NCBI GenBank assembly: GCA_022606425.2
Contig: JAHDVF020000938.1
Coordinates: 1 to 64,000, forward strand
DNA: 64,000 bases
Reading direction: 5' to 3'
Source of the DNA: Lepidostoma basale
Lineage: Eukaryota; Arthropoda; Insecta; Trichoptera; Lepidostomatidae
Shown here: positions 660 to 64,000 of the stretch, piece by piece
Numbering within the stretch: the first letter of the stretch is position 1
How the letters are laid out: each line of letters begins with the position of its first letter
Position numbers and translations under genes: made by a program
Notes under the pieces: generated by a model
The model's database searches: none
Seen by the model: the letters and a program-made list of their open reading frames with translations, nothing else
Told to the model about the DNA's origin: nothing

Positions 660-705
660 AATATCAAACATGTTTCAGACTACCCAGCCCTTCTTCAGTG
701 ATATT
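660..705 (-). ncRNA. Hammerhead-like ribozyme motif, HH-B left arm
   Basis: Minus-strand order: AAUAUCA (helix I), CUGAAGA, one extra A, GGGCU-GGGU-AGUCU (helix II, 5 bp with two G-U pairs), GAAAC, AUGU, cleavage-position U, UGAUAUU (helix I, 7 of 7 pairs with the 5' strand). All invariant core bases of the type I hammerhead are present. Helix III is the minimal ACAUGU palindrome, which suits action as a dimer. Cleavage is inferred, not shown. Confidence 0.7.
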
Positions 706-708
706 ATA

Positions 709-961
709 TAGATGGCGACCATCGTGGCACAGTGGTTACGAGCTCTGACTTCCATGCCGAAGGTCCTGGGTTCGATTCCCGGCGATAGCAGTGTGATTGT
801 TACACTGTCTTTGGTCTGGTGTAGAATTCACGTGACAATAAAATGGCAATAGATTGGCTACCTATGACATGTCACGAGAATCAATATAATAGCTGAAAAA
901 TAAAGATTATATACAGTAATTGGGTCCAAACGACCTGTTGTGTACACAAAAAAAAAATTTA
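709..961 (+). mobile_element. SINE-1 (tRNA-derived), nearly full length
   Basis: The head resembles a tRNA, with a B-box-like GGTTCGATTCCCGGCG after the GAAGGTCCTGG region. A shared body follows (TTTGGTCTGGTGTAGAATTC, then an AATAAAATGG block), and a tail with GGGTCCAAACGACCTGTTG and an A-run. Flanked by the 8 bp duplication ATATTATA. Non-coding; it would be moved by a partner LINE, which I cannot identify. Confidence 0.85.
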
Positions 962-1092
962 ATATTATAAAATTGTTTACAAATATGGTCAGTTTTTACA
1001 GATGTCATAATTTTTTTTTAATAAATCTTTATAACATCTGTCAAAACTGACCATATTTTTAAACAATTTTATAATATTTTAAATATCTATAC

Positions 1093-1138
1093 AATATCAC
1101 TGAGGAAGGGCTGGGTAGTCCGAAATATATTTGATATT
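1093..1138 (+). ncRNA. Hammerhead-like ribozyme motif, HH-B right arm
   Basis: Plus-strand order: AAUAUCA, CUGAGGA, extra A, GGGCU-GGGU-AGUCC (5 bp), GAAAU, AUAU, U, UGAUAUU. Helix I is 7 bp without mismatch and helix II has 5 pairs. The helix III palindrome is partly mutated (AUAUAU rather than ACAUGU). It mirrors the copy at 660-705; the change AGUCU to AGUCC turns a G-U pair into G-C. Confidence 0.7.
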
Positions 1139-1224
1139 TAATGTTAATTTGTTTAAAAAAAGAGTGTTTTATACGAAGTATATTAAAAAATAATAAATAT
1201 AAAACAACATTAAATTTAAATACA

Positions 1225-1540
1225 ACGTAAAATAAATACAATTGTGATACAAAAAACAAAAGTTTATTCATTAACAGTTTAAAATGTTAAGGTATATATA
1301 AAACATAATATTATAATTATTGGTTGTAATAAGTTTTGAGAAAATAAACTGATGTTATTAATTGATGAAATGCACACGATGCGCGTTCGCGAGAACGTTT
1401 CTGGATTATTTAGAATTTTATTCTGATTATTGTTGCATGAAAGTAGTGTAAAATACAAAAGGCAAACAATTTGGTATTGTTGTAATAATTGTGAACATTT
1501 TACCGTGTGTTATAACAAAAATATTTACATTAAAAGTTAA
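1225..1540. other. AT-rich, with an HH-A type flank
   Basis: 1225-1295 matches the outer flank of the HH-A elements (AATACAATTGTGATAC, then CAGTTTAAAATGTTAAGG), as at 24120-24185. No hammerhead core is left. The remainder shows no gene. Confidence 0.4.
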
Positions 1541-1544
1541 GTTA

Positions 1545-1815
1545 TAGATGTGTGCACCATTTGTCGCTCTGCAGATGTCTAGTCTGTAGTCGATTTCTTG
1601 CCACGTCCGTCCGTGCAATCATTTCAGGAGTACCTGTCAAGATAGCGGCAGAAACTCGCTACCGCAGGTGATTCAAATTCCGAATCTTTTCTGCGTACAC
1701 AATGTTAATGTACCCCCAGAAAAAGAAATCCAAAGGGGTTAGGTCAGGACTTCTTGGAGGTCAGGCAATGAGGGCTCCTCTACCAACCCAGCCGTTAGGA
1801 AAACATGCGTTCAAT
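1545..1815 (-). pseudogene. Transposase C-terminal remnant (DDE_3-like, mariner-related)
   Basis: One minus-strand frame reads NGWVGRGALIA, stop, PPRSPDLTPLDFFFWGY, then KIRNLNHLR, stop, a helical region, and ARTWQEIDYRLDICRATNG. PPRSPDLTPLDFFLWG is the block that ends the catalytic domain of a transposase-like family common in insects. Only two in-frame stops and no frameshift, so decay is moderate. The N-terminal half of the same family appears at 44270-44580. Confidence 0.75.
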
Positions 1816-1844
1816 TTATTCCATTAGTAGTTCAATTGCGCACT

Positions 1845-2035
1845 GTTACATCTGATCTTGGAGGGTCGACGAGGTGTTGGGAGAAGGCAGGTTTCCTGGC
1901 TGAGGAACATTCGAGAGTGGACAGGGCTAAGGACCATGGAGTAACTGTTCCGGGTGGTCCAGGACAGCGAGGCCTACTCAAGGGTGATAGTCAACGTAAG
2001 GGAGACCTGACAGGACACTGAAAGAAGAAGAAGTA
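1845..2035 (+). pseudogene. LINE-Y (RTE-like) 3' end
   Basis: Plus strand reads EGRRGVGRRQVSWLRNIREW, then a short variable part and VIVNVRET-stop, followed by the (AAG)n tail near 2024. This is the C-terminus of an RTE-like endonuclease/reverse transcriptase ORF. 5'-truncated, as usual for non-LTR elements. Fuller copy: 51775-52382. Confidence 0.8.
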
Positions 2036-7479: not shown

Positions 7480-7725
7480 TAATATACTTAGGAAATTGAA
7501 AATAACTTTGCTAATTTCGGAGGATACCTCCATCTTCAGGTGTAAAAATATAATAAAAACTAAACTAATCGTCTAAACTAAACAATAAGCCTTTCTTTGT
7601 TTAGTTTACATTTTATATGTACACCTGAAGATGGAGGTATCCTCCGATACATGTCGCGTTTTATAATATTCTTTTAATATTATGTGGTTTAAACAAAGAC
7701 ATTTTCAATTTCCTAAGTATAACAT
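7480..7725. mobile_element. HH-C foldback element
   Basis: Inverted arms joined by a loop around 7565-7610; outer ends TTAGGAAATTGAAAAT (about 7488) and its inverse (about 7705). Left motif 7512-7539 minus has CUGAAGA, U, GGAGG-UAU-CCUCC, GAAA but has lost helix III by deletion. Right motif at 7621-7659. A second copy of the left arm is at 21541-21660. Confidence 0.8.
7621..7659 (+). ncRNA. Hammerhead-like motif, HH-C right arm
   Basis: ACAC, CUGAAGA, extra U, GGAGG-UAU-CCUCC (5 bp helix II), GAUAC, AUGUC, GCGU. Helix I is 4 positions with one C-A mismatch. The core GAAA has become GAUA, which would be expected to inactivate it. The palindrome ACAUGU and the GUC cleavage triplet are kept. 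Confidence 0.55.
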
Positions 7726-8702: not shown

Positions 8703-9610
8703 ACTTCTCCATCTTCTTCAAGTGCCCTGTCGGGTCCCCCCAACGTTGGCGATCACATCGGCGAACCTGTCGCTGTCCTGCGTCGCTCGGAACAGCTCCT
8801 CCACGCTTCGGATGCCTGTCCACTCCCTTACGTTTCGCAGCCAGGACATTTGTCTCCTACCGGGCCCTCGGCGTCCCTCAATGTTTTTTTTAATATTTTT
8901 TTTTATGTATACAACAGGATGTTTGGACCCAATTAGTGTATACAATTTATATTTTTTAGCTATTATATTGATTCTCGTGACATGTGATAGGTAGCCAATC
9001 TATCGCCATTTTATTGTCACATGAATTCTACACCAGACCAAAGACAATGTGACAATCACACTGCCATCGCCGGGAATCGAACCCAGGACCTTCGGCATGG
9101 AAGTCAGAGCTCGTAACCACTCTGTCACGAAGGTGGTCAATATCAGTTGGGGAAGATGGTACTTTCCCCACGCAGTATATGACCCAGATGTGAAATTTTC
9201 CGAACCTTGATAGTCGATAACAGTTCCCTGTCATCTCAAGCTCGCCTCAGGTCTTCGGAATTGGTAACCATATCTGTCCATGGAGTTCTGAGCATTCGGC
9301 GATGGAGCCACATTTCAAATGATTCCAGTCTGTTCATTGAGTTGACTTTCAAGGTCTTTACGTTTCACATCCATACAATAAAACAGATCACACATAGCAT
9401 TTGATCATTCTCTGGCGGAGTTTCAAGTTTATGTTATCATTGCCGAAGAGTGATTTCATTTTATTAAACGTAGCTCTTGCTGCATCAATTCTGCATTTTA
9501 TATCTACATCTGGGTCAAGAGATTGCATAAGTAGTTAAAAATGTTCCACCCTTTCAACGTTACGGCCGTTTAAATGCAATACTGACCCACTGTAATCAAG
9601 CCGTCCGGGT
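8703..9610 (-). pseudogene. LINE-Y (RTE-like) reverse transcriptase C-terminal half
   Basis: Read from 9600 downwards: LHLNGRNVERVEHF, then IKCRIDAARATFNKMKSLFG, NSMNRLESFEMWLHRRMLRT, and at 8718-8880 GRRQMSWLRNVREWTG with VIANVGGT at the end. The layout is that of RTE-like ORFs after the catalytic reverse-transcriptase motifs. A SINE-1 copy (8904-9137) splits it. The stop and (AAG)n-type end lie at about 8703. Several frame changes. Confidence 0.85.
8904..9137 (-). mobile_element. SINE-1 nested in LINE-Y
   Basis: Full-length minus-strand copy, from the tail (ATGTATACAACAGG) to the tRNA-like head (GGGAATCGAACC as inverse B box, CACGAAGGTGG). Compared with the uninterrupted LINE-Y at 50597-50910 it has inserted within the CTCCAATATCAG region, so this SINE is younger than the LINE copy. 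Confidence 0.85.
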
Positions 9611-9690
9611 TACACTTAACACTTTACACTAAAGGGGTTAAAAACAAAATTGAACACATTTCACTTAGCATAAACTATTTTATTGAGTTA

Positions 9691-9738
9691 GTAGCGCCAA
9701 CCGGTTTCACTCTGTAGCGAACTTCCTCAGGGTTATAC
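9691..9738 (-). ncRNA. Hammerhead-like motif, HH-D left arm
   Basis: Minus strand: GUAUAACC, CUGAGGA, extra A, GUUC-GCUACA-GAGU (helix II, weakened), GAAAC, CGGU, cleavage U, GGCGCUAC. Helix I has 2 bp (CC/GG), a 3x3 internal loop, then 3 bp (GUA/UAC). Such an internal loop is where natural hammerheads make loop I-loop II contacts. Helix III is the ACCGGU palindrome. Confidence 0.65.
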
Positions 9739-9756
9739 ACAAACTGTACAGTTTGT

Positions 9757-9804
9757 GTATAGCTCTGAGGAAGCTTGCTTCAGAGTGAAACCGGTTAGCG
9801 CTAC
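9757..9804 (+). ncRNA. Hammerhead-like motif, HH-D right arm
   Basis: GUAUAGCU, CUGAGGA, A, a mutated helix II region (GCUUGCUUCAGAGU), GAAAC, CGGU, U, AGCGCUAC. Helix I: AGC/GCU, 2x2 loop, UAC/GUA. Relative to the left arm the first helix I pair is A-U instead of G-C and the third is C-G instead of a C-A mismatch, so pairing is kept despite base changes. Confidence 0.65.
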
Positions 9805-9954
9805 TAACTCAATTAGGTGGTTGATAGTAAGTGTAAAGTGTTAAATTTTATTTTTAAATGTGTCAAACCACCAAGTGAGGGTTCCGTATCAAAGTTTAAG
9901 CACTATAGAATTCAATTATTAGATTTTTTTATTAATTAAAACACAAATTAAAAC

Positions 9955-11590: not shown

Positions 11591-12060
11591 AATGATGTAA
11601 AACTGCATATTAAATAATTAATACGAATGAAAACGCCTGTTTTCTAGAAGTTTTATTACAATTTATGGGCAGTGGTGGTACTCCCATAGAAGCGCAGAAG
11701 CCTGGCTTGCGTAAGATATTTTGAATCAAAACTCCCGAATCTAAGTAATCATGCCCCCGCATAAATCAACAACCCACCAAATCACCTTCCAACAAAATTA
11801 TACCATCAGATGTAAGAGGGATAGCCACAAGAGCTGAATCTCTGTAAGCCAGAAGAGTTTCTGATTCAAAATTTCTTACCCAAGCCGGGCTTCTGGGCTT
11901 CCATGGGAGTACCGCCACTGTATTATATAATAATGTGTTTCGCCTGCCAATTATCAAACGTATCACAGACAGGCGTCATTCACATAAATTATAATAAATT
12001 TTTCGAAAACTTACGTTTTCATTCAAATTAATTACTAATGGTTATTTTGCCAGTTTCATG
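11590..12060. mobile_element. HH-E foldback element interrupted by a MITE
   Basis: Left flank AACAATGATGTAAAACTGCA and CTAGAAGTTTTATTACAATT; right flank ATAAATTATAATAAA, then TTTTCATTCAAATTAATTA. After the inserted MITE (11670-11920) a minus motif can be seen around 11935-11965 (UUUGAUAAUUGGCAGGC, then GAAACAC); the right arm is more decayed. Confidence 0.65.
11670..11920. mobile_element. Palindromic MITE (CAGTGGCGG ends), copy 1
   Basis: 251 bp with long terminal inverted repeats beginning CAGTGGTGGTACTCCCAT and ending with the inverse of CAGTGGCGGTACTCCCAT; about 60 bp pair on each side. Inserted into an HH-E foldback. The ends recall hAT-type termini, but I see no clear target duplication. 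The ORF at 11766-11966 is a by-product of the palindrome. Confidence 0.8.
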
Positions 12061-12119: not shown

Positions 12120-12560
12120 CTTCTGAACCTGCTACCATCCTGTGGAAAGCTTTAGCGCTTACTGGGGGCGATTTCGCCCCCGTTGGGTAGGTACCTATGA
12201 ACTATAGAGTAATTGTTATTCATAGTAAAGTGGATAATATAAAATAATGGTGAAATTGAACGCGACGACCACGTATAGGGAAATACGGCTTTATTAGTGG
12301 TATTATACTTCATGTATGCTTAATTGAGTTATGACCATATCGGATTAATGTTGCTACTGCTGGCTAAAAACCGTGAGTTTATAAGCTGCATTAAACATTT
12401 TAATGTGTACGCTTATTGACAAGCGTGAAGTCATCTCGGTATTATTGGCATTAACTTTGTGGTTGTATAATATATGTACATCATTAACTATTTAATATAC
12501 ACATATACGAGTATTACAATCAAATGATTTTACTGAAATCTCTTGATGGAAGTTCACTTG
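12120..12560. other. No gene seen
   Basis: Mixed composition. 12125-12190 is GC-richer, with CTGGGGGCGATTTCGCCCCC, a strong short palindrome. Otherwise AT-rich and unique. Confidence 0.35.
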
Positions 12561-12621
12561 AAATAATAATTAAATAAAACGATGTTTTTTTTAACTATTT
12601 CCACTTTTGTCTTAATTTCGA

Positions 12622-12662
12622 CAGCGACCGGTTTCGCCAGGCTCACTGGCTTCGACAGACTG
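12622..12662 (-). ncRNA. Hammerhead-like motif, HH-D2 left arm
   Basis: CAGU, CUGUCGA, A, GCCAG-UGAGC-CUGGC (5 bp), GAAAC, CGGU, C, GCUG. Helix I has 4 pairs including one G-U. Core position 6 is U instead of A on both arms, which should hurt catalysis; the rest of the core is intact. Confidence 0.55.
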
Positions 12663-12677
12663 GTGGTCTGGCCTGAT

Positions 12678-12714
12678 CTGTCGATGCCAGCGAGCCTGGC
12701 GAAACCGGTTGCTG
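12678..12714 (+). ncRNA. Hammerhead-like motif, HH-D2 right arm
   Basis: CUGUCGA, extra U, GCCAG-CGAGC-CUGGC (5 bp perfect), GAAAC, CGGU, U, GCUG. Helix I is weaker here than in the left arm. Core position 6 is again U. Confidence 0.5.
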
Positions 12715-12784
12715 TCGAAATAAAGACAAAAGTGGAACTAGTTAAAAAACATCGTTTTATTTAATTATTATTTCATATATTATA

Positions 12785-13445: not shown

Positions 13446-13514
13446 TGTGATTATAGGTCGAACGTAAATTTTATACTTAAGCATTCTGCTATTCTTCAAT
13501 ATACGTTTGTTTCT

Positions 13515-13712
13515 GTATATAATTAATTTTGAGCTATTATATTGGTTTTCGTGGCATGTAATAGATAGTCAATCTATCGCCACTTTATAGACACGTTAAT
13601 TTTAAAGCAGACCAATGTCAGTGTGAGAATCCCACTGCCATCGTCGGGAATCGAACGCGGGACATTCGGTGTGGCAGTCATAGCTGTTGTCACTTTGAAA
13701 CGGAGGCCATCT
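13515..13712 (-). mobile_element. SINE-1 copy, tail missing
   Basis: Minus strand with body (CTATCGCCACTTTATAGACA) and head (GGGAATCGAACGCGGGAC as inverse B box). Diverged; A-tail region lost at 13515. Confidence 0.75.
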
Positions 13713-19019: not shown

Positions 19020-19318
19020 GTTTATCTAAAATCAACTATGTAAATTCTATAATCAGTGATGTAAAATTCCATTTCCAAAGTTCAATACGAATGGAAATGT
19101 CTGTTTTCTAGAAGTTTTATAGAAAACGTGGTATGATCAAATCAATCAAATATTTAATGTCAGTCACATGAGGAGTCGGAGAAATCGACGTGCGTGCATG
19201 ACAAGATGTATGAATGTAGAGGAAGCAAGAGAAGTATGTCAGGACAGAACAGTGTGGCATTCCATTCTTTCTGCCTACCCCTCTCTGCGTGATGGTTAGT
19301 TAGTTAGTTAGTTTAGTT
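19020..19318 (+). pseudogene. HH-E flank followed by LINE-X 3' end
   Basis: 19022-19125 is an HH-E outer arm (CTGTTTTCTAGAAGTTTTAT). It runs straight into LINE-X at 19127, which reads IFNVSHMRSRRNRRACMTRC with the NVEEAREVCQ block and ends in (GTTA)n at 19301-19318. Confidence 0.75.
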
Positions 19319-19319
19319 T

Positions 19320-19600
19320 TATTTTCTTAAAGTTTGTACACAACACCAACTTTATTTAAAAAAAACAACAACAAACATGTTTCGGACACAGAAGTCAGTG
19401 ATATAAATATTATATAATTATTATTAATATTTTTAAAAATGTCATGAATGTGGTCAGTTTTGACAGATTTATTTTTAAAATATTTATAAAATTTATATCA
19501 GTAATGAAGGGCTTCTGTGTCCGAATTTTTTTTTCGTTTTGATTATTTTTTTTAATGAAGTAGGTTTTGTGTACAAAGTTTAAAAAATAATCATTGTTCC
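19320..19600. mobile_element. HH-B foldback, decayed
   Basis: Outer ends TTTGTACACAACACC and inverse; centre GTGGTCAGTTTTGACAGAT. Left motif (minus, about 19375-19402) has GUGUCC, GAAAC, AUGUU but lost part of CUGAAGA; right motif (about 19498-19530) has a broken core. The tandem TTTCGGACACAG and its inverse identify the family. Confidence 0.65.
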
Positions 19601-19629
19601 GTGAATCTGCAACACAAAGCTATGGCGAA

Positions 19630-19780
19630 TATAGAAGAAGTTTTATTATACTTTATGGAAGGATATACTAAATAATATTTTTAATTTCCAAGGGATTTTT
19701 AAAAGCCTTGGAATGCCAAGGCGAAATATGTCATTCCCATAAATATTAACAAAAAAAAATACTAAAAAACTAATGTTTTC
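19630..19780 (+). mobile_element. HH-E arm with extended stem
   Basis: At 19705-19722 GCCUUGG-AAUG-CCAAGGC makes a 7 bp helix II, followed by GAAAU, AUGUC at 19723-19732. The CUGANGA box upstream is not recognisable. Flank TTCCCATAAATATTA. Confidence 0.6.
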
Positions 19781-20090: not shown

Positions 20091-20469
20091 AATGTGGAAA
20101 GCAACGAGAACTAGCAGAAACTGTTGGTTCTTGGGATGCTGGGACTTAGAGAATCATTAGTCATCTTGAAATATGTAAAATCATTTGTAAACAATTTGTA
20201 AGAATATGTTTTTCTTATAAACACTTCATTTCGTCCTACCTCAAATAAATTATTTTTGATTTATATAATATCATTTTGTATCCCCTAACTATGTAATCAT
20301 TGTCATAAACATTTCTTAACGAGTTCCAAGAAACAATTTTCAAGATTTCTGAACCTACCCAAATATTTTTTTGGTAAAAATGTATAAAGTCACATCAATT
20401 TTCGTTAATTACCAAATTCTGCTCCATTCGCATGTGTATATAAACTGTAACGAGTTGAAGTTTCGTCAC

Positions 20470-20504
20470 ATTTGATAATGCCTTAGAAGGGCAAAACATG
20501 TCAT
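20470..20504 (+). ncRNA. Hammerhead-like motif, HH-E
   Basis: AU, UUGAUAA, extra U, GCCUU-AGA-AGGGC (5 pairs, one G-U), AAAAC, AUGUC, AU. Three core deviations: C3 to U, G8 to A, and G12 to A. Flank TTCCCATAAAATATAAG continues to 20560 with TTTTCATTCGTATTAA. Read as a decayed ribozyme. Confidence 0.5.
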
Positions 20505-20614
20505 TCCCATAAAATATAAGAAAACTTCTAGAAAACTGACGTTTTCATTCGTATTAACAATGAATATTTAGATATTAATTAAAATTATGAAAGGATTACT
20601 GCATTGGTTTGAAC

Positions 20615-20839: not shown

Positions 20840-21530
20840 TTTGTTGTTGTTGTTAACATTAGTTTATGTTGAGTATTGTACCATATTGTTATAAATTATG
20901 AGCCACATCTTTGTGAAGTTTTACTTATATATGTGTTAAGACCGTAGATGGATTCTCAATAAACATAATTAGAATTCGAAAAATCTGACCTTTAAGGAAA
21001 TTCTCCCACGAACGTATCTTAGAACTGTTCATTTATTGGTGTCATCATTTTGATCGATCGAAATAAATTAGTCGTCAGATCTAAAAGACACGAAATCGAA
21101 TTTATTCCGTATATAAATCTGCAACTTTATGACTTGGTCCGCGAATAATGCATGTAGATTTTGCAGGGCAATAAAATCTAGAGTCATAAAAATGTTTTGG
21201 CGATTGTATGCTTGGCAAGCTTGGATTCCCATACTTGCTCCTAATAGATATTATGGATGTGTTTTGTTAACACGACCGATTCGATTCCGATTTATGGATT
21301 ATTCTGTGTATTCATACACAAATAATTTAGTTTCACCAATTATTTTATCAAGTTTTGAATACAACCATAACACTTTCATATGTGGCCCTTGTTTTGTAGT
21401 GTAGCATTATTAAAATAATTAAAAATATGATTATACTATGTTTTTACACCTCGTTAAATGTGTTTGATTTTAAGTTATTCCATAAAGTTGTGTAAAAATA
21501 AAGTAAAATAGTGTTTTAAATTAAATTGAT
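20840..21530. other. Unique sequence, no gene
   Basis: Single-copy; a 91-codon ORF at 21129 (ends SFEYNHNTFICGPCF) has no recognised domain. Not called. Confidence 0.3.
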
Positions 21531-21540
21531 ACAAAATAAT

Positions 21541-21660
21541 GTTATACTTAAGAAATTGAAAATAACTTTGTTTAATCCAAAAAATATTAAAAAAAAAAAA
21601 CATATTTCGGAGGATACCTCCATCTTCAGGTGTAAAAATATAATAAAAACTAAACAATGA
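21541..21660 (-). mobile_element. HH-C single arm
   Basis: Matches 7480-7560 (AAATTGAAAATAACTTTG, AGGTGTAAAAATATAAT). The motif is listed separately. The right arm is missing. Confidence 0.75.
21601..21633 (-). ncRNA. Hammerhead-like motif, HH-C
   Basis: CAC, CUGAAGA, extra U, GGAGG-UAU-CCUCC (5 bp), GAAAU, AUG. Complete CUGANGA and GAAA. The 3' side runs into an inserted A-tract, so helix I is gone. Confidence 0.55.
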
Positions 21661-21699
21661 AGACTAATATAAAAACGCAGTTAAAATTCGATACAATAA

Positions 21700-24007: not shown

Positions 24008-24250
24008 AGTGCTCTCTGTTTCATCAACCTATGTTGACATCATCAGGTGTTATAATAATATATCAAAATTGTAACACTTGATGATGTAATCATAGGTTGA
24101 TGAAACAGCTGTCGCGTAAAATAAAATACAATTGTGATATAAAAAACAAAGTTATTAAATTTAACAGTTTAAAATGTTAAGGTTTCATAGTGTTTCGGCC
24201 AAAACAATGGACTAACTCTATTATTTGCAAGAAGAAAATAATCAAACTAA
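24008..24250. mobile_element. HH-A foldback element
   Basis: Left motif 24012-24046 minus: CUGAUGA, U, GUCAAC-AUAG-GUUGAU, GAAAC, but the palindrome is damaged (AGAGAG). Right motif 24078-24113 plus: UUGAUGA, U, helix II damaged, GAAAC, AGCUGUC, GCG. Outer right flank AATACAATTGTGATAT, then CAGTTTAAAATGTTAAGG. Little loop sequence (24050-24075). Confidence 0.75.
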
Positions 24251-24254
24251 TAAT

Positions 24255-24480
24255 TTGTTATAACAAATGAATAAACTTTCGAAAAAAATCATTTTAATAT
24301 CTGTCAAAACTGACCATATTCATGAAAAAATTGTTTAAATATTTATATTTTTATACTCGTGTACAAAACACTAATGTCTGAAATATGTGTGTATTTAATT
24401 TTTTTTTAAATAAAGATGCTGTTGTTTACAAATGTATAAATATTGTTGAATGAATCCGCAACACAAAGTAATGGCGAATA
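24255..24480. mobile_element. HH-B remnant
   Basis: Inner segment ATCTGTCAAAACTGACCATA (24299) and outer CGCAACACAAAGTAATGGCG (24461) match HH-B elements; the core is lost. Confidence 0.45.
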
Positions 24481-25080
24481 TAGAAGAAATAAAATAATCG
24501 TGTGATATTTTACCTCGATAATATAATATAACGAAACTGAGAAATCGTGGCAGACACCGACGTGAAGTGGGTACTGTATTCCATAGATAATTGAGGTTTG
24601 GTAAACTGTCATGGCGTCGCCGCAATCGCTCCCAAATAAGTACCGATGCACGAACCGTATAGTGTAGCATGCAAGGTTGGTACCTACACAATCCTGCCAC
24701 CTAAGCATCAACTGAGGAATTTCAGTGTGGCCGTAGCCCTAGTGTCAAATTAGACATTTATACGTTACAAAAAAAAAAGATATTTAAGTGTTCGAATTCA
24801 GAATTAAACAAAACGTTCCATAAATATTTAATATGGTTTATATTAAATAGTCCATTATTTTGTCCGAAATACTATGATACTTTAACATTATAAACTATTA
24901 AATTAAAGACCCCGCGAACCCCGGGCAATGTGGCACATATTACTTAGTGCCATAGAAGATAGAGAGAGGACGAATGGTGAGCTTCCAACGCCATAAAACT
25001 GGATACACCCAGCTAAGGGAAGGTAACCCCGACAGAATATCCTCCAGAGAAGGCAAAGGGATACTACTCTGGATATTTTT
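24480..25080. other. Unique sequence, no gene
   Basis: Two overlapping 101-codon minus-strand ORFs (24395-24711) are in different frames of the same DNA and lack motifs. 24905-25080 is GC-richer and may be a diverged upstream part of the following LINE-Y. Confidence 0.35.
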
Positions 25081-25153: not shown

Positions 25154-25159
25154 ATGAAA

Positions 25160-25560
25160 AAAACTTGGTTTTATGCATAATATAACAATTGTATTTTTAT
25201 TTTTCGCGACAGCTGTTTCGTCAACCTATGTTGACACCATCAGGTGTTACAATAGATTATAAAAAGTCAAATTTTAGTAATTTTTTTAATAGTTAAGTGT
25301 ATTTGTTCCTATGTCAATTTAAATAATTTCTTTGATATAATTTTAAAGTTCTTGCTTGAGTTGAGTTAAGTACCTAATTATTTTAATCAAAAGAACGGTT
25401 CGTTACTATTTATAGGAGAAATTATTGAAGGTGGAAAATATAATAAAAAATAAAAATAATAAAAACAGTAATTAGAAGAAACATGATGTCAACGTTGACG
25501 AAACAGCTGTCGCGAAAAATAAAATTACAATTGTGATACATAAATCAAAGTTTTTTCGGT
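25160..25560. mobile_element. HH-A foldback element
   Basis: Outer arms TAACAATTGTATTTTTATTT (left) and AAATAAAATTACAATTGTGA (right). Motifs at 25205-25246 (minus) and 25483-25514 (plus; UGAUG, GUCAACGUUGAC without a loop, GAAAC, AGCUGUC). The 240 bp interior is AT-rich. Confidence 0.8.
25205..25246 (-). ncRNA. Hammerhead-like motif, HH-A
   Basis: CAC, CUGAUGG, U, GUCAAC-AUAG-GUUGAC (6 bp perfect), GAAAC, AGCUGUC, GCG. Helix III is the 8-base palindrome ACAGCUGU; cleavage triplet GUC. Core A9 is G here (A in other copies). Helix I: G-C, C-A mismatch, G-C. Confidence 0.65.
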
Positions 25561-26150
25561 TTTACATTATATTATAAGTTTGTGTTCAAACATATATGTA
25601 CTGCGGATTTTGAAATTGTGTTGATTAAAAATATGTCTCAATTATAATATATTATTTGAATACGTAAGGTTTGGACTCGCCATGATTGAATATACTGTAA
25701 AGCAAGTATAACAATTATTTTATTCTTTAAAACCAAAAAATACACTTCGGTAATTTGTACGTTTTTGTATCCTAAATGTAGGCGTAGGCTAGTTATGAAT
25801 TTAAAGATTTTAAAGATATTTAATTTAAAATGACGCCAGCACAAACGAATAAAACAAAATAACCATAATTTTCGTAGCTTTATTTGTTTGCTTTTTGTTT
25901 CATAACTAATTGACTGAGATTAAGAAAATTTATTGTGACCTCCTTTGAGGTGGGAAAATAATGGATGGAAAACTTTTCGGCTTATCTGAGTGTTGAAATA
26001 AGATCAGATATTAACTGGAACAGTTTAAAGTTAGGCCTCCCCATACTTCTGTCTTGCAAGGATATGATCGATGAGACTTACGTGAAAATATCTTAAGGAA
26101 AATTAAACCTTTTCAGTATCGCTTAACGCACTTTTATGGTATAATTTATG
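25560..26150. other. No gene seen
   Basis: AT-rich unique sequence. Confidence 0.4.
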
Positions 26151-27384: not shown

Positions 27385-27605
27385 ATTGTATCTTGAACAA
27401 TGTTGTAAAACTCCATATTAAATGATTAATGTGTATGATAAAACGATAGTTTTTAAGGAGTTTTATTATAATATTTATGTATGAAATTTTTTGCCCTTCT
27501 AAGGCATTTTCAAATATTGATTTGATATGCCTTAGAAGGGCGAAACATGTCATACATAAATATTATAATGATATTCCTTGAAAACTATCGTTTTTTCATA
27601 CAAAT
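27385..27605. mobile_element. HH-E foldback element
   Basis: Outer arms TTGAACAATGTTGTAAAACT / AAAACGATAGTTTTTAAGG on the left and AAAACTATCGTTTTTTCATA on the right. Left motif about 27487-27519 minus (UUGAAAA, U, GCCUU-AGA-AGGGC, AAAAA) is inactive; right motif at 27520-27553. Confidence 0.8.
27520..27553 (+). ncRNA. Hammerhead-like motif, HH-E right arm
   Basis: AU, UUGAUA, U, GCCUU-AGA-AGGGC, GAAAC, AUGUC, AU. GAAAC, the ACAUGU palindrome and the GUC triplet are intact; the CUGANGA box has C3 to U, G8 to A and one base missing. Confidence 0.5.
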
Positions 27606-27818
27606 GAATAATCATGGATATGTTTTGATGCTTGTACAGTAGCTTAAAAAAGGGATGTTGTGCTTGCAACTAAATCATTCTCGAAGGTTCTAGCCACGAT
27701 TTTTTTCTTCTTCCGATACTTCGTTTTCCATTCATTTTACCTTCGATAAGCAGTTGCATCACTTTGTATATATATTTAATATTTAAACGTTCCATTATTA
27801 TTTTTTGAAATGAATACC

Positions 27819-30129: not shown

Positions 30130-30395
30130 GTATTTATTATAAATATTATAAAAAATAATGTTGAACTCGTATTAAATAAGTTATTTGAATGAAAACGTCT
30201 TTTTTTTAGAAGTTTTATTATAATTCATGAAAACCACATGCTTCGCTTCGTTAAGGCATTCTCAAATGTAAAGACATTCATTTCCTTATCAAACTATAGA
30301 AAGGCTAAACGTATCATTCACATAAATTATAATAAAACCTTTGAAAAACACCACGTTTTCATTCGTATTAATTAGTTTTTATTCAAATTAATTTT
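30130..30395. mobile_element. HH-E foldback, decayed
   Basis: Left arm GAAAACGTC, TTTTTTAGAAGTTTTATTAT and right arm ATAATAAAACC, TTTTCATTCGTATTAATTA are inverse. Motif remnants CATGCTTCGCTTCG and GCTAAACGTATCATTC have lost the core. Confidence 0.6.
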
Positions 30396-30439
30396 ATAAT
30401 TCAAATTTTTACTTTACGATAAATGTAATATTAATAAAT

Positions 30440-30700
30440 AGTCCATTCTTTTGGCAGAAACACTATGAAACCTTAACATTTTAAACTGCTAAATTAAATA
30501 ACTTTTTATATCACAATTGTATTTTATTTTACGCGACAGCTGTTTCATCAACCTACGTTGACATCATCATCATTTTTTTTTAAATACATTATTGTATCAC
30601 CTGATGATGTCATCATAGGTTCATGAAACAGCTGTCGCGTAAAATAAAATAGAATTATGATACAAAAAACAAAGTTATTTAATTTGCAATATTAATAAGT
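30440..30700. mobile_element. HH-A foldback element
   Basis: Left outer flank CCTTAACATTTTAAACTGC, TATCACAATTGTATTTTATT; right flank AAAATAAAATAGAATTATGA. Left motif 30535-30570 minus: AUGAUGA, U, GUCAAC-GUAG-GUUGAU, GAAAC, AGCUGUC. Right motif 30598-30639. Confidence 0.85.
30598..30639 (+). ncRNA. Hammerhead-like motif, HH-A right arm
   Basis: CAC, CUGAUGA (fully consensus), U, GUCAUCAUAGGUUCAU (helix II weakened by two mismatches), GAAAC, AGCUGUC, GCG. Its partner arm at 30535-30570 has the better helix II but C3 changed to A. Confidence 0.6.
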
Positions 30701-30729
30701 TAAATCAATACATCGTTGTATTTGTTTCA

Positions 30730-31756: not shown

Positions 31757-32085
31757 TATACTCTCTCCGACAGCGACAGCATAAATGGTTTTACCTACCG
31801 GCCGCCAGAACCAACCTGCCTCTGGTGACGCAGATGGGAAAAGCAATTAATCTGCTGAACGCGGTCACCTGGGAAATCGACTCTTTTATATTAGTAGTAG
31901 TACGTTCAGAAAACAAAAATTCTTGATTTTGAAGAGTATCTAGTCTTCCTAATGTCGAACATGTCTCATGCGTTTCTGGTAGTATACTATAAACAAAATA
32001 TTATTTTACCTATTCTGAAAAGATGCCTTAAAAATTAATTTTGTAATATCTTTTGATGAAATAAACTGATTTGATTTGTTTGTCT
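31757..32085 (+). pseudogene. LINE-W 3' end with (GATTT)n tail
   Basis: Plus strand: LSDSDSINGFTYRPPEPTCL in one frame (the RQRQHKLFYLPATRTNLPLA region after a shift), then GKAINLLNAVT, the 3' UTR with CTTCCTAATGTCGAAC and tail AAATAAACTGATTTGATTTG. Confidence 0.75.
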
Positions 32086-32094
32086 TTTTCTTTT

Positions 32095-32330
32095 TTTTTA
32101 TACGAGTACTTTGTATATACAACACTAACTTTTTTAATTTTTTTAAATTACATATCATACATGTTTTGGACAACCGGTCCTTCTTCAGTGATACATATTA
32201 TAAAGATACATATTTAAAATATTATAAAATTGTTTACAAATATGATCAGTTTTGACAGATGTTATAAAGATTTATTTTGGAACGTTAGTGCTTTTGTATA
32301 ACAAATATTATGAATATATTTAAAATTTAA
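32095..32330 (-). mobile_element. HH-B single arm
   Basis: Outer TTTGTATATACAACACTAAC, motif at 32150-32196, inner ATTATAAAATTGTTTACAAA and GATCAGTTTTGACAGATG. The right arm is absent. Confidence 0.75.
32150..32196 (-). ncRNA. Hammerhead-like motif, HH-B, with 8 bp helix I
   Basis: UAUGUAUCA, CUGAAGA, A, GGAC-CGGUU-GUCC, AAAAC, AUGU, A, UGAUAUGU. Helix I pairs 8 positions (two G-U). Helix II 4 bp. The one core defect is G12 to A. The cleavage-position base is A, which the hammerhead rule (not G) allows. Confidence 0.65.
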
Positions 32331-32404
32331 AATAATAATTTAGAGTTCTTATTGTTTTTTTTTTTAATTTGGTTTGAGTTAGGTATCTTTGGGATCCTAT
32401 TTTA

Positions 32405-40262: not shown

Positions 40263-40549
40263 CCATTAATATGAAATGTGGAAGAGTCAAATTAATTAGA
40301 TGATAATTGTCAGCCAATTGGGTAATCCAGGACATTGGGATGCATGGGTGAAACGATGTATGAATCTTGAGGGAGCGAAAAAAGCTCATATTCAATTTTT
40401 ATTAAAAAAACAGTGGGGCAGTTAATTTTTTGTGTCTACTGTGATGGTTGGTTGCATATTTACTTTTATTGCAAGATCCAAAATATTGATGATAAATTAA
40501 ATAAAATATTCAGATTTCACAATTCATTGAATTTAATAAATAAACAGTC

Positions 40550-41000
40550 AATTGGTTTGGCAGAAACACTATGATACTTCAACATTATAAACTGTTTAAT
40601 TAAAAAAACTTTGTTGATGTATCACAATTTGTATATTTTTTGTTTTTCGCGACAGCCGTTTCGTCAACCTATTATGTTGGCATCATCAGATGTTACAATA
40701 ATCTATCAACTAAATTAAATATTATAAATACTAAACATTTTATATTAATTTGATAAGATCATGCCATGTTTTTCACGGTCTTCTTCGGTTTCTTGTTCCA
40801 TTCACATCGTAAAAGTACTGTATAATTTCTTTACATATTGTTTCTCGAACAATTATATAGAACTCTGTATTAAATAATTAATAAATAGTCCATTGTTTTG
40901 ATGATGTCAATGTTGGTTGATGAAACAGCTGTCGTAAAGTAAAATAAAAACAATTTGTGATATAAAACAAAGTTTTTGAATTAACAGTTTTTTTAAATAA
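40550..41000. mobile_element. HH-A foldback with a LINE-X slice inserted
   Basis: Left outer flank GGCAGAAACACTATGATACT, left motif 40648-40692 minus; right motif 40898-40936 plus (UUGAUGA, U, GUCAAU-GUUG-GUUGAU, GAAAC, AGCUGUC). Between them 40760-40815 is a LINE-X fragment (GGTTTCTTGTTCCATTCACA) and 40835-40890 an HH-E flank. Confidence 0.75.
40648..40692 (-). ncRNA. Hammerhead-like motif, HH-A, consensus core
   Basis: CUGAUGA, extra U, GCCAAC-AUAAUAG-GUUGAC (5 of 6 pairs), GAAAC, GGCUGUC, GCG. All core bases match the hammerhead. Helix III changed ACAGCUGU to ACGGCUGU, costing one pair in the palindrome. Confidence 0.65.
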
Positions 41001-42892: not shown

Positions 42893-42959
42893 AAAAAATA
42901 TATATTGATAATAATAGTGATAAATACAATAAAATAAGTGTAATTTAATTTATTTCTAT

Positions 42960-43335
42960 TTTTCTTTTTTCTACACTTTGTATAAACAACACTTACATTA
43001 AAAAAATAAATTATATAGACAAACAGTCCTATAGACATTATATAGACAAACAGTCCTTCTTCAGTAAAATTACATATTTATAAAAATATTGTAAAATTGT
43101 TGTTGTTTTTAAATGATCCGACAGAAACTAACAGATAACATCTGTCAGATCATGTAAACAACAACAATTTTATTATATTTTTATAAATATGTATCTTTAC
43201 TGAAGAAGGACTGTTTGTCCGAAACATATCTATGTAATTTTATTTTATTAATATAAGTGTTGTTTATACAAATTATATAAAAAAAGAAAAAGAGAAATAA
43301 AGCATCATAACAACACAAAGTATGGCGAATAAAAA
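42960..43335. mobile_element. HH-B foldback element
   Basis: Left arm 42965-43080: TATAGACAAACAGTCCT is duplicated in tandem (about 43013 and 43040) and GAAAC is lost. Inner arms ACATATTTATAAAAATATTG and inverse. Right motif at 43198-43232. Outer right end CACAAAGTATGGCGAATA. Confidence 0.8.
43198..43232 (+). ncRNA. Hammerhead-like motif, HH-B, consensus core
   Basis: UA, CUGAAGA, A, GGAC-UGUUU-GUCC (4 bp), GAAAC, AUAU, C, UA. CUGANGA and GAAA are fully consensus. Helix I begins with 2 pairs, then a mismatch. Palindrome ACAUAU. Confidence 0.6.
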
Positions 43336-43439
43336 AGAAGTAAATGAATCCGTTCAAATATGAATCGAAAACACAAAGCGAAGGCAAATATACGAGAATT
43401 TTTTCTTGGTTACTTAAAACTGTAATATATTATATTTGA

Positions 43440-50269: not shown

Positions 50270-50480
50270 ATTAAGTAGAATTTATTGTATTTTGAACAAT
50301 GATGTAAAACTCTATATTAAATAATTAATATGAATGAAAACGTTTGTTTTCTAGAAGATTAATTATAATTTGTGGAAATAATATGTTTCGCCTTTCTAAA
50401 GCATCATCAAATGCCTAAGAATGGCGAAACATGTCAGTCACAAAAATTATAATAATACTTTATTATTGCCATAAATTACA
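50270..50480. mobile_element. HH-E foldback element, compact
   Basis: Left flank GAACAATGATGTAAAACTCT and GAATGAAAACGTTTG; arms meet at 50405-50410 with almost no loop. Left motif 50378-50412 minus, right motif 50405-50435 plus (GCC-UAAGAAU-GGC, GAAAC, AUGUC; box damaged). Confidence 0.8.
50378..50412 (-). ncRNA. Hammerhead-like motif, HH-E, best box
   Basis: AU, UUGAUGA, extra U, GCUUU-AGA-AAGGC (5 pairs, one G-U), GAAAC, AUAU, U, AU. The only core deviation is C3 to U. It pairs UUU with AAG/AAA where other copies use CUU with AGG, a compensating change in helix II. Confidence 0.6.
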
Positions 50481-52719: not shown

Positions 52720-53090
52720 TATGTTTAAATGTACTTACTTCACTTACTTAAACAGCTGATGTCGTCCACTGCTGGCCAATGGCCTCCCCTATCCACATAA
52801 TCCTATCTTGTGCTTTCGTATCCAGTCACTAACAATTTATCATCCACCAAAAATTCCTTAATTTGTTTTAAAAAAACACGTCGTAAACTTTTTTTATTAT
52901 CTTTTTACATAGAGAATGTCATTTATAATATAAATTTAATATTATAAATGATATTTAATAATATTTAAAATCTTTCGCATGTAGCACTTAATTCGTGATA
53001 CATTATCAAACATAAATTAAAACGCGTATGTATTATCATGCGAGGTTATTTATTATTTTATCTCGTATATTATTCAAAGATTCGTCGTGT
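52720..53090. other. No gene seen
   Basis: AT-rich; 52760-52830 may be a short LINE slice but I cannot name it. Confidence 0.35.
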
Positions 53091-53092
53091 TA

Positions 53093-53128
53093 CCCTAACG
53101 AAGCTTCGGTGAGAGCGAAACCGGTTGG
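53093..53128 (+). ncRNA. Hammerhead-like motif, HH-D single arm
   Basis: CC, CUAACGA, extra A, GCUU-CGGUGA-GAGC (4 pairs, one G-U), GAAAC, CGGU, U, GG. One core change (G5 to A). Helix I starts with two G-C pairs as in 9691-9738. No inverse arm found nearby. Confidence 0.55.
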
Positions 53129-53149
53129 CCAAAAAAAGCAATAAAAGTT

Positions 53150-54105
53150 ATATTATTAAAAATTAAAATTATTTTTTTTTTATTAATTTTTAATTTCAAA
53201 TCCATTTTAATATGAATTTATCAAATATTATACTATTTAATGCCTATTAGAATAATTCTTCCCTAATGATCATGACTCACCGTTCTAACATCCTATTCGG
53301 ACTCGTGCACACTTTCCCCTACCCCTCTTTCTGTCGTCCATTTTATATATCTTTTGTCATATGTTATTCTCTGATTTTATGTTTAGTTTATTCTCTTTCA
53401 GTAACAAATAAAGTGGTTTAGGTACACATTACAAGCGTTTTATTATTATATTTAATAATGTCACACCACAAATGAAGCGCTTCATACGAATGTTTAAAAA
53501 ACATATTTATTAGCATGTTAACTTTCGTATACTCGTAAAGCACTTAATTTATGATGCGTATTTTTTGTGAATACATATATATTACTTGACAAATATAATA
53601 TTTGATTTTAATCCCACTTTATCTTTATTTTTTAAAACACTAATAATTGGTTTTACTCTATGCGGAGCTTAATCGGTTAAACAAAACAAATTATTATATG
53701 TTACGAAACGAAATGAATGCTCCGTTTTGAGCGAAACCGGTTGAAAAATTGATGACTTACATGATTTTTTTAGTATACAAAATCTAGAATGATGTGTAAT
53801 ACAGGCCTGCGGAGATTATCGGTTTGGACTGAATTCCGACAATCCCCTACCAGAATACGCTAGGAGATCAGACAACATGGAGGAATTCGTCATCCAATAT
53901 TCCAACCCCTGTCTGGGTCATTTGAGATGCATTTATGTTCATCGTGGGGTGAATTCATTGACGAGGTAGTAAATTACAATGTAAATGTATGCAAAATTTA
54001 TTGAAAGGAGAAATAATTGTGATCTGATTAGGACAAAGGAAACATTCTAACAAAAATACGGTTGAAAAATTACTATATATTATAATATGTATACTACATA
54101 ATCGA
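53150..54105. other. No gene seen
   Basis: AT-rich apart from the HH-D remnant at 53711-53742; 53815-53940 is unique and more GC-rich. Confidence 0.3.
53711..53742 (+). mobile_element. HH-D remnant
   Basis: GCUC-CGUUUU-GAGC perfect 4 bp stem, GAAAC, CGGUU; the CUGANGA box is unrecognisable. Confidence 0.5.
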
Positions 54106-59395: not shown

Positions 59396-59459
59396 GAAAT
59401 TAGAACATCTTATTTGAAAAGGAATACATTCGTTCCGACTACAATTAAACGTATTTTAT

Positions 59460-59700
59460 TAAACTATGGCGTAAAACTCAATATGAAACAATTAATACGA
59501 ATAAAAACGCCCGTTTTCTAGAATTTTAATTATAATTTACGGGAATGACATATTTCGCCTGTCTAAGGCATTATCAAACGCGAATTCGTAATAATTATTC
59601 AATTTTAAATGTTTATGTGTGAATACATAGAAGAATCTTTAAATCGGAACTTTATTTTATATCTTCGGAATTACATGTTTCGCCTTGCTAAGAAATTTCA
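59460..59700. mobile_element. HH-E arms
   Basis: Left arm AACTATGGCGTAAAACTC, ACGCCCGTTTTCTAGAATTT and motif 59545-59579; a second arm remnant at 59671-59700 (minus GCAAGGC, GAAAC, AUGUAA). Confidence 0.7.
59545..59579 (-). ncRNA. Hammerhead-like motif, HH-E
   Basis: UUGAUAA, extra U, GCCU-UAGAC-AGGC (4 bp perfect), GAAAU, AUGUC. GAAA and GUC intact; box deviates at C3 and G8. Confidence 0.5.
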
Positions 59701-61794: not shown

Positions 61795-61799
61795 AGTCA

Positions 61800-62860
61800 T
61801 ATAAGATCAAGTCAAAATTCTGATATATCGCAGTAATATTTCCAAAGCGACATGAATCAAAAGTAATTTTTGAAAATACAATTGTGATATATTAGGTTAA
61901 GTTGTATTTAGAAAACGCACTCGAAGGTCGTGAAATCTCGAATTGGAGTAAAAAAAACGTATACTCGAACTATAATGTAATACATACTTCATCATAGTGG
62001 ACTATTTTTAAAATATCAATAATACTCGTATGTAATGCTGATATGTCAGTCAGTTTGTCAGATTCATATTCACGTGAGCAAACTACACTATCGATTTTCG
62101 AAACGAATATTCACAATACAGATTTTATCTTTGTACTAATAGGTTTAAACCATTTTATAGGAATGACAAAGGAACGAGTAAAGGTAAATAATAAATCCAT
62201 TCTTCTTGTTGCCAGTATAGATACAAATTTCTATTCGTTTTCATCCCTTGAATGGCTCGTCCGGTGGAGGAAGACGGACCTTTTCATGGGGGCAAACAAT
62301 GGACATCCCTTAAATCAGCGGTGCTCAACATCCCCGCTTTACTACTTATGAAAAACAATCGTAGATGTATAGTCAAGGAACTCATTAAAGATAAAATTAA
62401 AACGATACCATGGAATAAATTTACCATATTCTATTTGAATTTTTTAAGGAACATTTTGTGTAGGAAGTGATTATCTTATAATATAATATTTTTGTGCGAA
62501 ATTACTACTATGTAATTTATTTTATAACAAAATTAAAAAGAGTAAAAACATTTTTATTGAAATAAATATGGTATAAATTGTACATCAAAAAGTATTTTCA
62601 CTACATTTTAGTATTTTTTATAACAAATATTAAAAGTGGTTGTCATCCTTTCTTTGTAAATAAATTTTAGTAGTATGATTTTTACACCGATGAAGGATGA
62701 CCAAATAAAAAAATCGGTCTGTTATAAAAAGCGATAAAACCGTGTTTTTTTTACTATGAATTCACAATGAAAAGTGATAATGAATATGAAAAAAAAAATT
62801 TGATTAACTTAGAACAAAAAAAATACATTTTAACACTAATCGCCCATGTTAGAAATTTGA
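61800..62860. other. Unique sequence, no gene called
   Basis: ORFs at 62043 (102 codons) and 62252 (72 codons) overlap in different frames and show no motif. No repeat relationship seen. Confidence 0.3.
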
Positions 62861-62861
62861 A

Positions 62862-62975
62862 GAATCAAAGCTCGTGTATGACTAGCTGTCATACATGTGG
62901 ATGAAGTGGTGTGTCCGGAAAGATTAGTGTGACCTATTGGATAGGTATTTTTGCCTACGAAAGTCTCTGCCCGTT
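62862..62975 (+). pseudogene. LINE-X tip, highly diverged
   Basis: AATCAAAGCTCGTGTATGAC, TAGCTGTCATACATGTGG, GTGTGTCCGGAAAG; equals the NRRACMTRCMNVEE region. Confidence 0.5.
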
Positions 62976-63289
62976 TGTTGTTATTGTCTTAAATGATTTT
63001 TTACCAATATAAAATATTCGTATTTTAAATTTAATTATATGTTTTCTTTCATGAAAAGTTTTGGAATATTCGTGTGCAGACCACACTGTTAAGGTGTTGT
63101 TATTGTCCTTAAATGACACCGGAAGTCAGGAAAGCATGTACTTACTCAAAGGTATACAAACATTTTGAATACAATTCACACCAAACATGACAAAGAAGCA
63201 GTTCTAGTTTCACGATTCTGTTACGTTTAACGCACACTTTGGCCCTTAATTACAAAAATCAATAATTAATTTGATAGTCAATACCTATC

Positions 63290-63500
63290 AAAACATATGT
63301 TATCTATAAGTTTTATTATAATATGTGGATAAGACATGTTTCGTCTTTCAAAGGCATTATCAAATTTTGACTTTCGATAATTCCTTAGAAAGACGAAGTA
63401 TCTAATTCCCATAAAATATAATAAAACTTCTAGGAAACAGACGTTTTTATTCAAACAGACTTTGGAGTTTAACAACATTGTTCAAGAAACAATAATTAAA
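63290..63500. mobile_element. HH-E foldback element
   Basis: Left arm ATAAGTTTTATTATAATA; right arm TTCCCATAAAATATAATAAA, GAGTTTAACAACATTGTTCA. Left motif 63331-63365; right motif 63372-63402 plus (CGAUAA, U, UCCUU-AGA-AAGAC, GAAGU, AUC; inactive). Confidence 0.8.
63331..63365 (-). ncRNA. Hammerhead-like motif, HH-E left arm
   Basis: UUGAUAA, extra U, GCCUU-UGA-AAGAC (4 of 5 pairs), GAAAC, AUGUC. GAAAC, palindrome and GUC intact; box deviates at C3 and G8. Confidence 0.5.
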
Positions 63501-63565
63501 TTGATAGTTCTTGAAATATAATGTAAAACTCTCAACGCAAGGCGAAACATTTCATAATATTCAAT

Positions 63566-63645
63566 CATATTTTACCTGCACGCTATAGATGCCTTAAACA
63601 TTAATGCTGTTTGGAATGTATTTTGAGTAAATAAACTGATTTGTT
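63566..63645 (+). pseudogene. LINE-W 3' UTR tip
   Basis: ATATTTTACCTG, AGATGCCTTAAACATTAATG, GAGTAAATAAACTGATTTG. Confidence 0.6.
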
Positions 63646-63774
63646 TTCACTCTTATAAAATATAATATAATAAAACTTCTGAAAAACTGATATCTTCATC
63701 AAAATCAAAAGTTACTACAGTCTTAATTAAATATATATTTCTTCTATATACGCCATACTTTGTGTTGTTATGAT

Positions 63775-64000
63775 TGTTTATTTCTATTTTTCTTTTTTAT
63801 ACACTTTGTATGTACAACACTTGTATTAAAATAAATATTTATAACATCTGTCAGATCATGAAAACAACAATAATTTTATAATATTTAAAAAATGTATCTT
63901 TACTGTAGAGGGACTGTTTGTCCGAAACATGTCTATATAATTTTATTTTTTAATATAAGTTTCGTATAAACAAAGTGTATAAAAAAGAAAAATAGAAATA
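63775..64000. mobile_element. HH-B foldback, left core deleted, at window edge
   Basis: Left outer TTTTTATACACTTTGTATGT and right outer ACAAAGTGTATAAAAAAGAA are inverse. Inner ACATCTGTCAGATCATG. The left motif is missing; the right one is at 63901-63935. Confidence 0.75.
63901..63935 (+). ncRNA. Hammerhead-like motif, HH-B
   Basis: UA, CUGUAGA, G, GGAC-UGUUU-GUCC (4 bp), GAAAC, AUGUC, UA. Palindrome ACAUGU and GUC intact. One core change (A6 to U), and the extra base is G. Confidence 0.55.

Follow-up and report, generated by a model that had tools for sequence, protein, structure and literature searches.

Several families of repeats in a 64,000-nt stretch of Lepidostoma basale DNA (contig JAHDVF020000938.1 of assembly GCA_022606425.2, positions 1 to 64,000; hereafter the window) carry a hammerhead fold with one extra base before helix II, and they frequently lie in head-to-head pairs. 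The RNA fold is a type I hammerhead whose helix III is a very short palindrome, as a prediction made from the letters of the window had proposed: covariation is seen in helix II, in the two innermost pairs of helix I and, in one family, in the core pair between positions 3 and 8 (C3-G8). Self-cleavage itself is predicted. The repeats are probably non-coding units of the size of the pseudo-long terminal repeats (pseudo-LTRs) of Penelope-like elements (PLEs), with the hammerhead near the 5' side, and would be copied in trans by a PLE reverse transcriptase. This interpretation was drawn from the published marks of PLEs, namely inverted pairs, a tail, target duplications, hammerheads and an ATG at stem II. 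They look like fossil copies of an already described kind of element; the evidence for the fold is clear, and there are hints as to how the pairs form.

Hammerhead-like sites in the window

The plain pattern CTGANGA..GAAAC was found at 7 sites, compared with 0.66 in shuffled sequences. A structural scan with at most one core mismatch, at least four pairs in helix II and register 0 or +1 permitted resulted in the detection of 18 sites, whereas 30 dinucleotide shuffles gave a mean of 1.1 and a maximum of 3. A perfect core was present at 6 sites, whereas none occurred in the 30 shuffles. All 18 sites of the structural scan have a single additional base separating CUGANGA from helix II. Two of the 18 (+1900 and -34651) lie outside all repeat families and are probably chance matches.

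In the least biased test, sites were picked by the two core anchors alone (at most one mismatch) and the stem was ignored. This choice gave 33 sites, compared with a mean of 9.85 and a maximum of 16 in 40 shuffled windows. A helix II of at least four consecutive pairs formed in register +1 at 19 of the 33 sites, against 0.94 (maximum 5) in shuffled intervals, and a chance origin of the sites was rejected on these numbers. No such stem formed at any of the 33 sites in register 0 or in register +2. Because stems form only in register +1, the extra base before helix II is a rule in the window. The original prediction of about 20 sites of one hammerhead design, with a single additional base before stem II, was borne out in both scans, and all seven helix II stems that it had named were present.

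The sites fall into six or seven repeat families, some of them related. At least six unrelated-looking families had been predicted; the number stood, but helix II GGGCU and GGAC both occur in a single family (F12), and an alignment of F5 with F7 shows 69% identity over 104 columns. Profile hits, partial and decayed ones included, numbered 10 for F12, 10 for F4, 3 for F3, 3 for F5 (the F7 unit at 53087 included), 5 for F6 and 29 for F8, the most abundant family in the window.

Covariation supports a hammerhead fold

Two alignments were used. The first (A1) consisted of 21 sites, and 12 of the 33 anchor sites were left out, being outside the repeat families (16887+, 17530+, 47227+, 61239+, 49944-, 49009-, 39479-, 34651-, 30573-, 15164- twice and 2269-); the excluded 34651- has a four-pair stem. 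Helix II was paired in 96.4% of the cells of A1, three of its four pairs were changed on both sides, and its covariation was 1.075 compared with 0.314 after shuffling. The second set (A2), also of 21 rows, includes nine F8 copies whose core region is readable, from the 29 profile hits of that family, and excludes F4 (seven rows, with a palindrome two bases longer) and 7539-, where helix III is deleted. Here helix II was paired in 92.9% of the cells and the first two pairs of helix I in 88.1%; all five pairs of helix I together reached 61.0%, with the three outer pairs at 29-62%. Eight representatives, two of them from F12, were used for the helix I and cleavage-site tests. The first pair of helix I formed in 8/8 of them, and the first two pairs in 14 of 16 cases (permutation mean 6.75, P ~0.0001).

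Core positions 3 and 8 were paired in 20 of the 21 rows of A2. Seven of these pairs are U-A, and because all seven rows belong to F8, the change from C3-G8 to U3-A8 was probably a single event. To our knowledge, an exchange of C3-G8 is otherwise known only from the laboratory, where a different double mutant (C3G/G8C) was made. In a PLE hammerhead C3G or G8C is reported to abolish cleavage, and the double change to restore it in part (PMC11167929).

Folding of eight copies gave helices I and II as the minimum-energy structure in two F12 copies and helix II in three more; one of the eight was more than two standard deviations more stable than its shuffles. A model built on 12 sites, with F8 and F4 left out, recovered six F8 copies at E values of 0.0002 to 0.08 and matched a decayed F6 relative at E 0.003.

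Core variants, helix III and the predicted cleavage position

The core CUGANGA...GAAA is kept in F12, F3, F4 and F5. It departs in F6, which reads CUGUCGA in both arms of its element (A6 changed), in F7 (CUAACGA) and in F8 (consensus UUGAUAA), and it is lost in the copy with helix II GCUC/GAGC at 53691, so that the claim that every site reads CUGANGA did not hold. In all eight representatives a U or C comes after helix III, which reads ACAUGU, ACCGGU or ACAGCUGU, with ACAUAU in one of the eight; helix III is very short unless the RNA is dimeric. The predicted non-G base after the palindrome was thus found in every representative, whereas the F8 copy 30265- has a G at the cleavage position; the other exception to U or C is an A at 32188-.

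An ATG occupies the A9-U-G position in F3 and in most F4 copies, and in F3 the predicted cut is 25 bases from its A. F12 has no ATG at stem II. In F4 (24069-24150 and 30592-30702) the 5' arm of helix I also complements a stretch about 20 bases beyond the cleavage site; in 30592+ the second complement is UUGUAUCA/UGAUACAA, and it may form a long-range alternative helix I.

Pairing and ends of the repeats

Pairing was counted over all 68 profile hits, with near neighbours taken as hits of the same family within 450 bases. The 28 near pairs comprised 21 head-to-head, 2 tail-to-tail and 5 direct ones, and one of the direct pairs is a single arm split by the insertion of a short interspersed nuclear element (SINE). 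With core-spanning hits only, 13 of 16 near pairs were head-to-head and the other three direct. Such pairing did not feature in the original prediction. Among the 25 inverted repeats shown (127 pairs in all), seven (I4, I6 to I10 and I14) carry the motif or its F8 form in each arm, pointing outward, and in I22 the two motifs come from different F4 elements and point inward.

Downstream homology mostly stops 85-110 bases past the start of helix II, and farther in some F4 copies. The 3' ends of F12 form two classes, at profile positions 88-102 (five arms, short) and 147-160 (four arms, long). The profile was derived from the four long copies; the window end truncates one more arm, and another three hits are partial. 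Extents derived from a profile are trivial for the copies that built it, and the extents of such copies were not used as evidence. F12 units open with the short palindrome ACAGAT..ATCTGT, and two of the three F12 elements readable at both ends (43061-/43202+ and 19396-/19506+) combine a short end with a long one. In the element at 19315..19647 the arm at 19396 (-) has the short outer end, and the arm at 19504 (+) has the long outer end and a tail. Its arms have inner starts 39 profile positions apart, later on the + arm, and a 9-bp repeat, AGTTTTATT, stands exactly at its ends. The element at 42949..43345 has helix II GGAC/GUCC; the arm with the motif at 43064 (-) has the short end, and the arm with the motif at 43200 (+) the long one. 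A further F12 element (63738..64000), with a long end at 63840 (-) and a motif at 63903 (+), is cut by the window end.

The head-to-head F12 element at 588..1212 has motifs at 698 (-) and 1100 (+) and helix II GGGCU/AGUCY. Its segment 656-706 (-) forms helices I and II in the minimum-energy structure, and an 8-bp direct match, ACAACATT, is found at 577 and 1204. Its left arm is interrupted by one copy of a tRNA-like SINE family, which also occurs near 2971 and at 8879-9139, 13510-13712 and 18380-18556 (the copy inside the arm being 713-894) and which scores 27 bits with the Rfam tRNA model, whose cutoff is 29. Two F12 units are listed singly. The one at 32069..32346 (-) has its motif at 32188, helix II GGAC/GUCC and, in the fold predicted for it, 8 pairs in helix I, and the one at 24257..24500 (+) has the long end (AACACAAAGTAATGGCGAATATAGAAGAA) and a decayed core. 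The string AACACAAAG-N(1-2)-ATGGCGAATATAGAAGAA recurs in varied form at 19611+, 24460+, 43312+, 45692- and 63766-, and immediately beyond it the copies no longer agree. Reverse transcription of the long tail may begin at this string, and so may the parent reading frame; the tail letters ATGGCGAAT.. showed no continuation as a long open frame.

The F3 element at 7480..7724 has motifs at 7539 (-) and 7625 (+), helix II GGAGG/CCUCC and the ATG at A9-U-G, and an F3 unit lies at 21517..21673 (-, motif 21629). F4 is represented by elements at 24016..24272 (motifs 24046 - and 24078 +; helix II GUCAAC/GUUGAY, helix III ACAGCUGU) and 30387..30703 (30570 - and 30601 +; outer arm ends unequal in length) and by head-to-head units at 25154..25580 (25243 - and 25483 +) and 40494..40990 (40689 - and 40898 +). 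The F5 element at 9638..9857 (9730 - and 9765 +) has helix II GYUY/GAGU and helix III ACCGGU, the latter also found in the F7 unit at 53087..53186 (+; core CUAACGA, helix II GCUU/GAGC). The F6 element occupies 12559..12775 (12658 - and 12678 +; helix II GCCAG/CUGGC, core CUGUCGA). F8 comprises a head-to-head element at 27422..27612 (helix II GCCUU/AGGGC), units at 50276..50460 (50410 - and 50411 +), an element at 63245..63497 (63363 -, core UUGAUAA; 63374 +, core UCGAUAA) and units with the U3-A8 core UUGAUAA at 20469..20567 (+) and 59440..59581 (-).

Comparison with Penelope-like elements

Architecture supports the link to PLEs: the units often pair head-to-head, a 3' tail is present on some arms, a 9-bp repeat stands exactly at the expected ends of one element, and an ATG occupies A9-U-G in F3 and most F4 copies. 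PLEs are described as having inverted pseudo-LTRs, mostly head-to-head, with a palindrome at the junction, an optional tail of 31 bp (published range 31-40 bp) on one pseudo-LTR and target duplications of 8-10 bp in some copies (PMC3846280), and they carry minimal type I hammerheads (PMC7761336, PMC6155905). The account of Adineta vaga Penelope gives the closest arrangement, with head-to-head inverted pseudo-LTRs, a junction palindrome, an optional tail on one arm and 8-10 bp duplications in some copies. Its pairs mostly flank a frame for reverse transcriptase and GIY-YIG or captured DNA, whereas the pairs in the window stand alone, in several families, with no coding detected (PMC3846280). 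In the Anolis carolinensis Poseidon element PAc the start codon lies at stem II and the ribozyme cut 26 bp further, a spacing close to that of F3; copying starts at two sites, which accounts for the tail, both target strands are cut and extended, and RNA with a dead ribozyme is inserted as well. PAc is, as described, a full-length coding element studied in vitro, and F12, unlike it, has no ATG at stem II (PMC11167929).

The minimal PLE type I hammerheads (Cervera and de la Pena 2014; Lunse, Weinberg and Breaker 2017) share with the window sites the CUGANGA/GAAA core, helices I and II and a helix III that is reduced or missing and suited to dimers. The window sites may differ from them in the extra base before helix II, which is present at every stem-forming site, and F8 has a U3-A8 pair where C3-G8 would stand. 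Solo PLE pseudo-LTR pairs with hammerheads were not found in the titles and abstracts of the open-licence literature searched. De la Pena and Flores in 2001 reportedly described an extra base between A9 and helix II in chrysanthemum chlorotic mottle viroid. Such a viroid hammerhead with one additional core nucleotide (PMC11014351) is a natural parallel to the sites described here; it is, in that account, one case in viroid RNA, whereas the extra base of the window is found in all families.

How the pairs may have formed

We infer from these likenesses that the units belong to PLEs. Each unit would extend some 85 to 190 bases beyond the point where helix II starts, and further with a tail. The PLE enzyme would cut and prime both target strands, and two independent complementary DNAs (cDNAs) would meet with their 5' ends inward, leaving a head-to-head pair. 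Pairing through independent priming at both ends is likely. The ribozyme would trim or release the unit RNA, probably as a dimer via the palindromic helix III; it would not be essential for insertion, and in the transcript of a full palindrome it would be buried.

A number of observations weigh against this interpretation. The Rfam hammerhead models, which are alike to the window sites in core letters and helix order, gave no match at the gathering threshold or at E values up to 10, short pieces and lax limits included, and the predicted Rfam hits thus failed to appear at every threshold tried. In F3 and F4 the second pair of helix I is an A-C mismatch, and the model built without F8 and F4 barely recovered F4 (best E 2.3). 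The core changes of F6 and F7 are expected to stop cleavage; the proposal that the fold was selected while the sequence turned over fits the comparison between families but is harder to square with these two cores. They hint that cleavage is dispensable for insertion, although each rests on one element and old copies decay. The predicted descent from, or parasitism of, PLEs has the architecture in its favour, but a Pfam scan of 20 of the 120 reading frames (at least 70 residues), all 20 being among the 21 longest, gave no match to reverse transcriptase or GIY-YIG; among the scanned frames there was one weak glycosyltransferase match, below its cut-off. Seven of the 28 near pairs are not head-to-head, and 19 of the 68 profile hits have no near partner. 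The F12 element 692-/1106+ (588-1212) has two short ends, and in F5 and F6 the arms match in symmetry at either end; self-priming would account for this as readily as double priming. The two classes of F12 end are separated by 45-72 profile positions, beyond the 31-40 bp published for tails. A direct match of at least 8 bases was present in only 2 of 12 boundary rows (11 elements, one of them cut by the window end; no chance control). The RNA of a full palindrome (42960-43300) forms a self-fold of -142 kcal/mol in which the ribozyme is hidden.

The pairing step alone could be explained in another way, which we regard as possible rather than probable, above all for the symmetric F5 and F6 elements: one PLE cDNA or antisense RNA would fold back on its palindromic 5' end and copy itself into a mirror pair. 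Self-priming on an antisense template is favoured in the 2013 account of PMC3846280. The F12 units do start in a palindrome of the kind reported there for PLE pseudo-LTRs, and the F5 and F6 arms match symmetrically. Self-priming should, however, yield equal outer ends, and two of the three readable F12 elements pair a short end with a long one; the inner starts at 19315-19647 differ by 39 profile positions, and the outer arms of the F4 element at 30387-30703 are unequal. A comparison of arm identities did not separate self-priming from double priming.

The hairpin with GAAAC and the palindrome might instead be kept as a protein-binding site, in RNA or DNA, and not as a ribozyme. This would explain why F6, F7 and decayed relatives of F6 keep helix II and GAAACCGGU while the other strand of the core changes, and a ribozyme-dead RNA of the Anolis PLE is reported to be inserted (PMC11167929). 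We find it unlikely, as the inner pairs of helix I and C3-G8, which matter in the folded three-way hammerhead, covary, with the reservation that the C3-G8 change was probably a single event.

Ordinary miniature inverted-repeat transposable elements (MITEs), non-coding DNA transposons with terminal inverted repeats in which the hammerhead letters would be chance or a transposase binding site, share with the repeats an inverted shape, a length of about 200-600 bases, AT-richness and many copies. They are a very improbable source: helix II, inner helix I and C3-G8 covary, outer and inner ends vary between arms and copies (only F5 and F6 have equal arms), 19 of the 68 hits lack a near partner and there is no uniform target duplication. 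The MITE reading was rejected on the unequal ends. Animal retrozymes, small non-autonomous elements with circular RNA and canonical type I hammerheads, are also short and non-coding, and retrozyme-like repeats are reported in insects (PMC7229834), but an origin of this kind is hardly credible and was rejected on the orientation of the near pairs, since retrozymes are described as tandem repeats, the invertebrate ones mostly with a stable helix III (PMC7229834, PMC7761336), whereas only 5 of the 28 near pairs here are direct, the SINE-split arm among them, and helix III is very short.

Other repeats and look-alikes elsewhere

The window also contains two hairpin repeats, at 16162-16409 and 11670-11920, with arms 97% and 89% complementary and GC-rich letters common to the arms. 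The first has a weak match to MIR5020, and the Rfam microRNA matches were read as palindromes and rejected as microRNAs. A tandem array at 29102-29562 consists of 2.8 copies of a 169-base unit. A fragment resembling a long interspersed nuclear element had 53 matches, among them two named lepidopteran ones, from Parnassius mnemosyne and Eumeta japonica.

Three pattern scans of viral contigs gave 0, 0 and 1 stretch, and the one stretch (L001) had no four-pair stem. A scan of prokaryote contigs picked up 13 stretches; in none of them did helix II form four consecutive pairs. A custom hammerhead model (R1) matched stretches L004, L005 and L010 at E <0.001, values that are flattering because the stretches had been chosen by the core pattern. 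L004 (1303-1354 of JAKSDK010001231.1, a short contig of a Phycisphaerales metagenome-assembled genome, MAG) reached 37.7 bits with R1 and looks eukaryotic; inspection of its frames, made without a Pfam scan, revealed no evident PLE reading frame. L005 (1-420 of JAIRMD010000233.1) is a Prevotellaceae MAG contig joined to insect-looking DNA rich in CA repeats, with a hammerhead-like core in the same +1 layout and a weakened helix II beside an inverted repeat. It is perhaps host contamination or a chimera.

Implications

The failure of the Rfam models to match suggests that this form of hammerhead is under-annotated. The role of the hammerhead in PLEs and the formation of inverted pairs are open questions in the field. 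A genome in which several families retain the fold, with a compensated pair in the core of one and altered cores in others, allows both the need of cleavage for spread and the priming of both strands to be tested. A wider reading, which we hold to be rather doubtful, is that non-coding Penelope pseudo-LTR parasites have radiated in one genome and keep their own class of hammerhead, marked by an obligatory extra base before helix II, that U3-A8 in F8 is compensatory and that the unequal arm ends record priming of both strands in vivo. If this were true, the unequal arm ends would settle how the inverted pairs of PLEs form.

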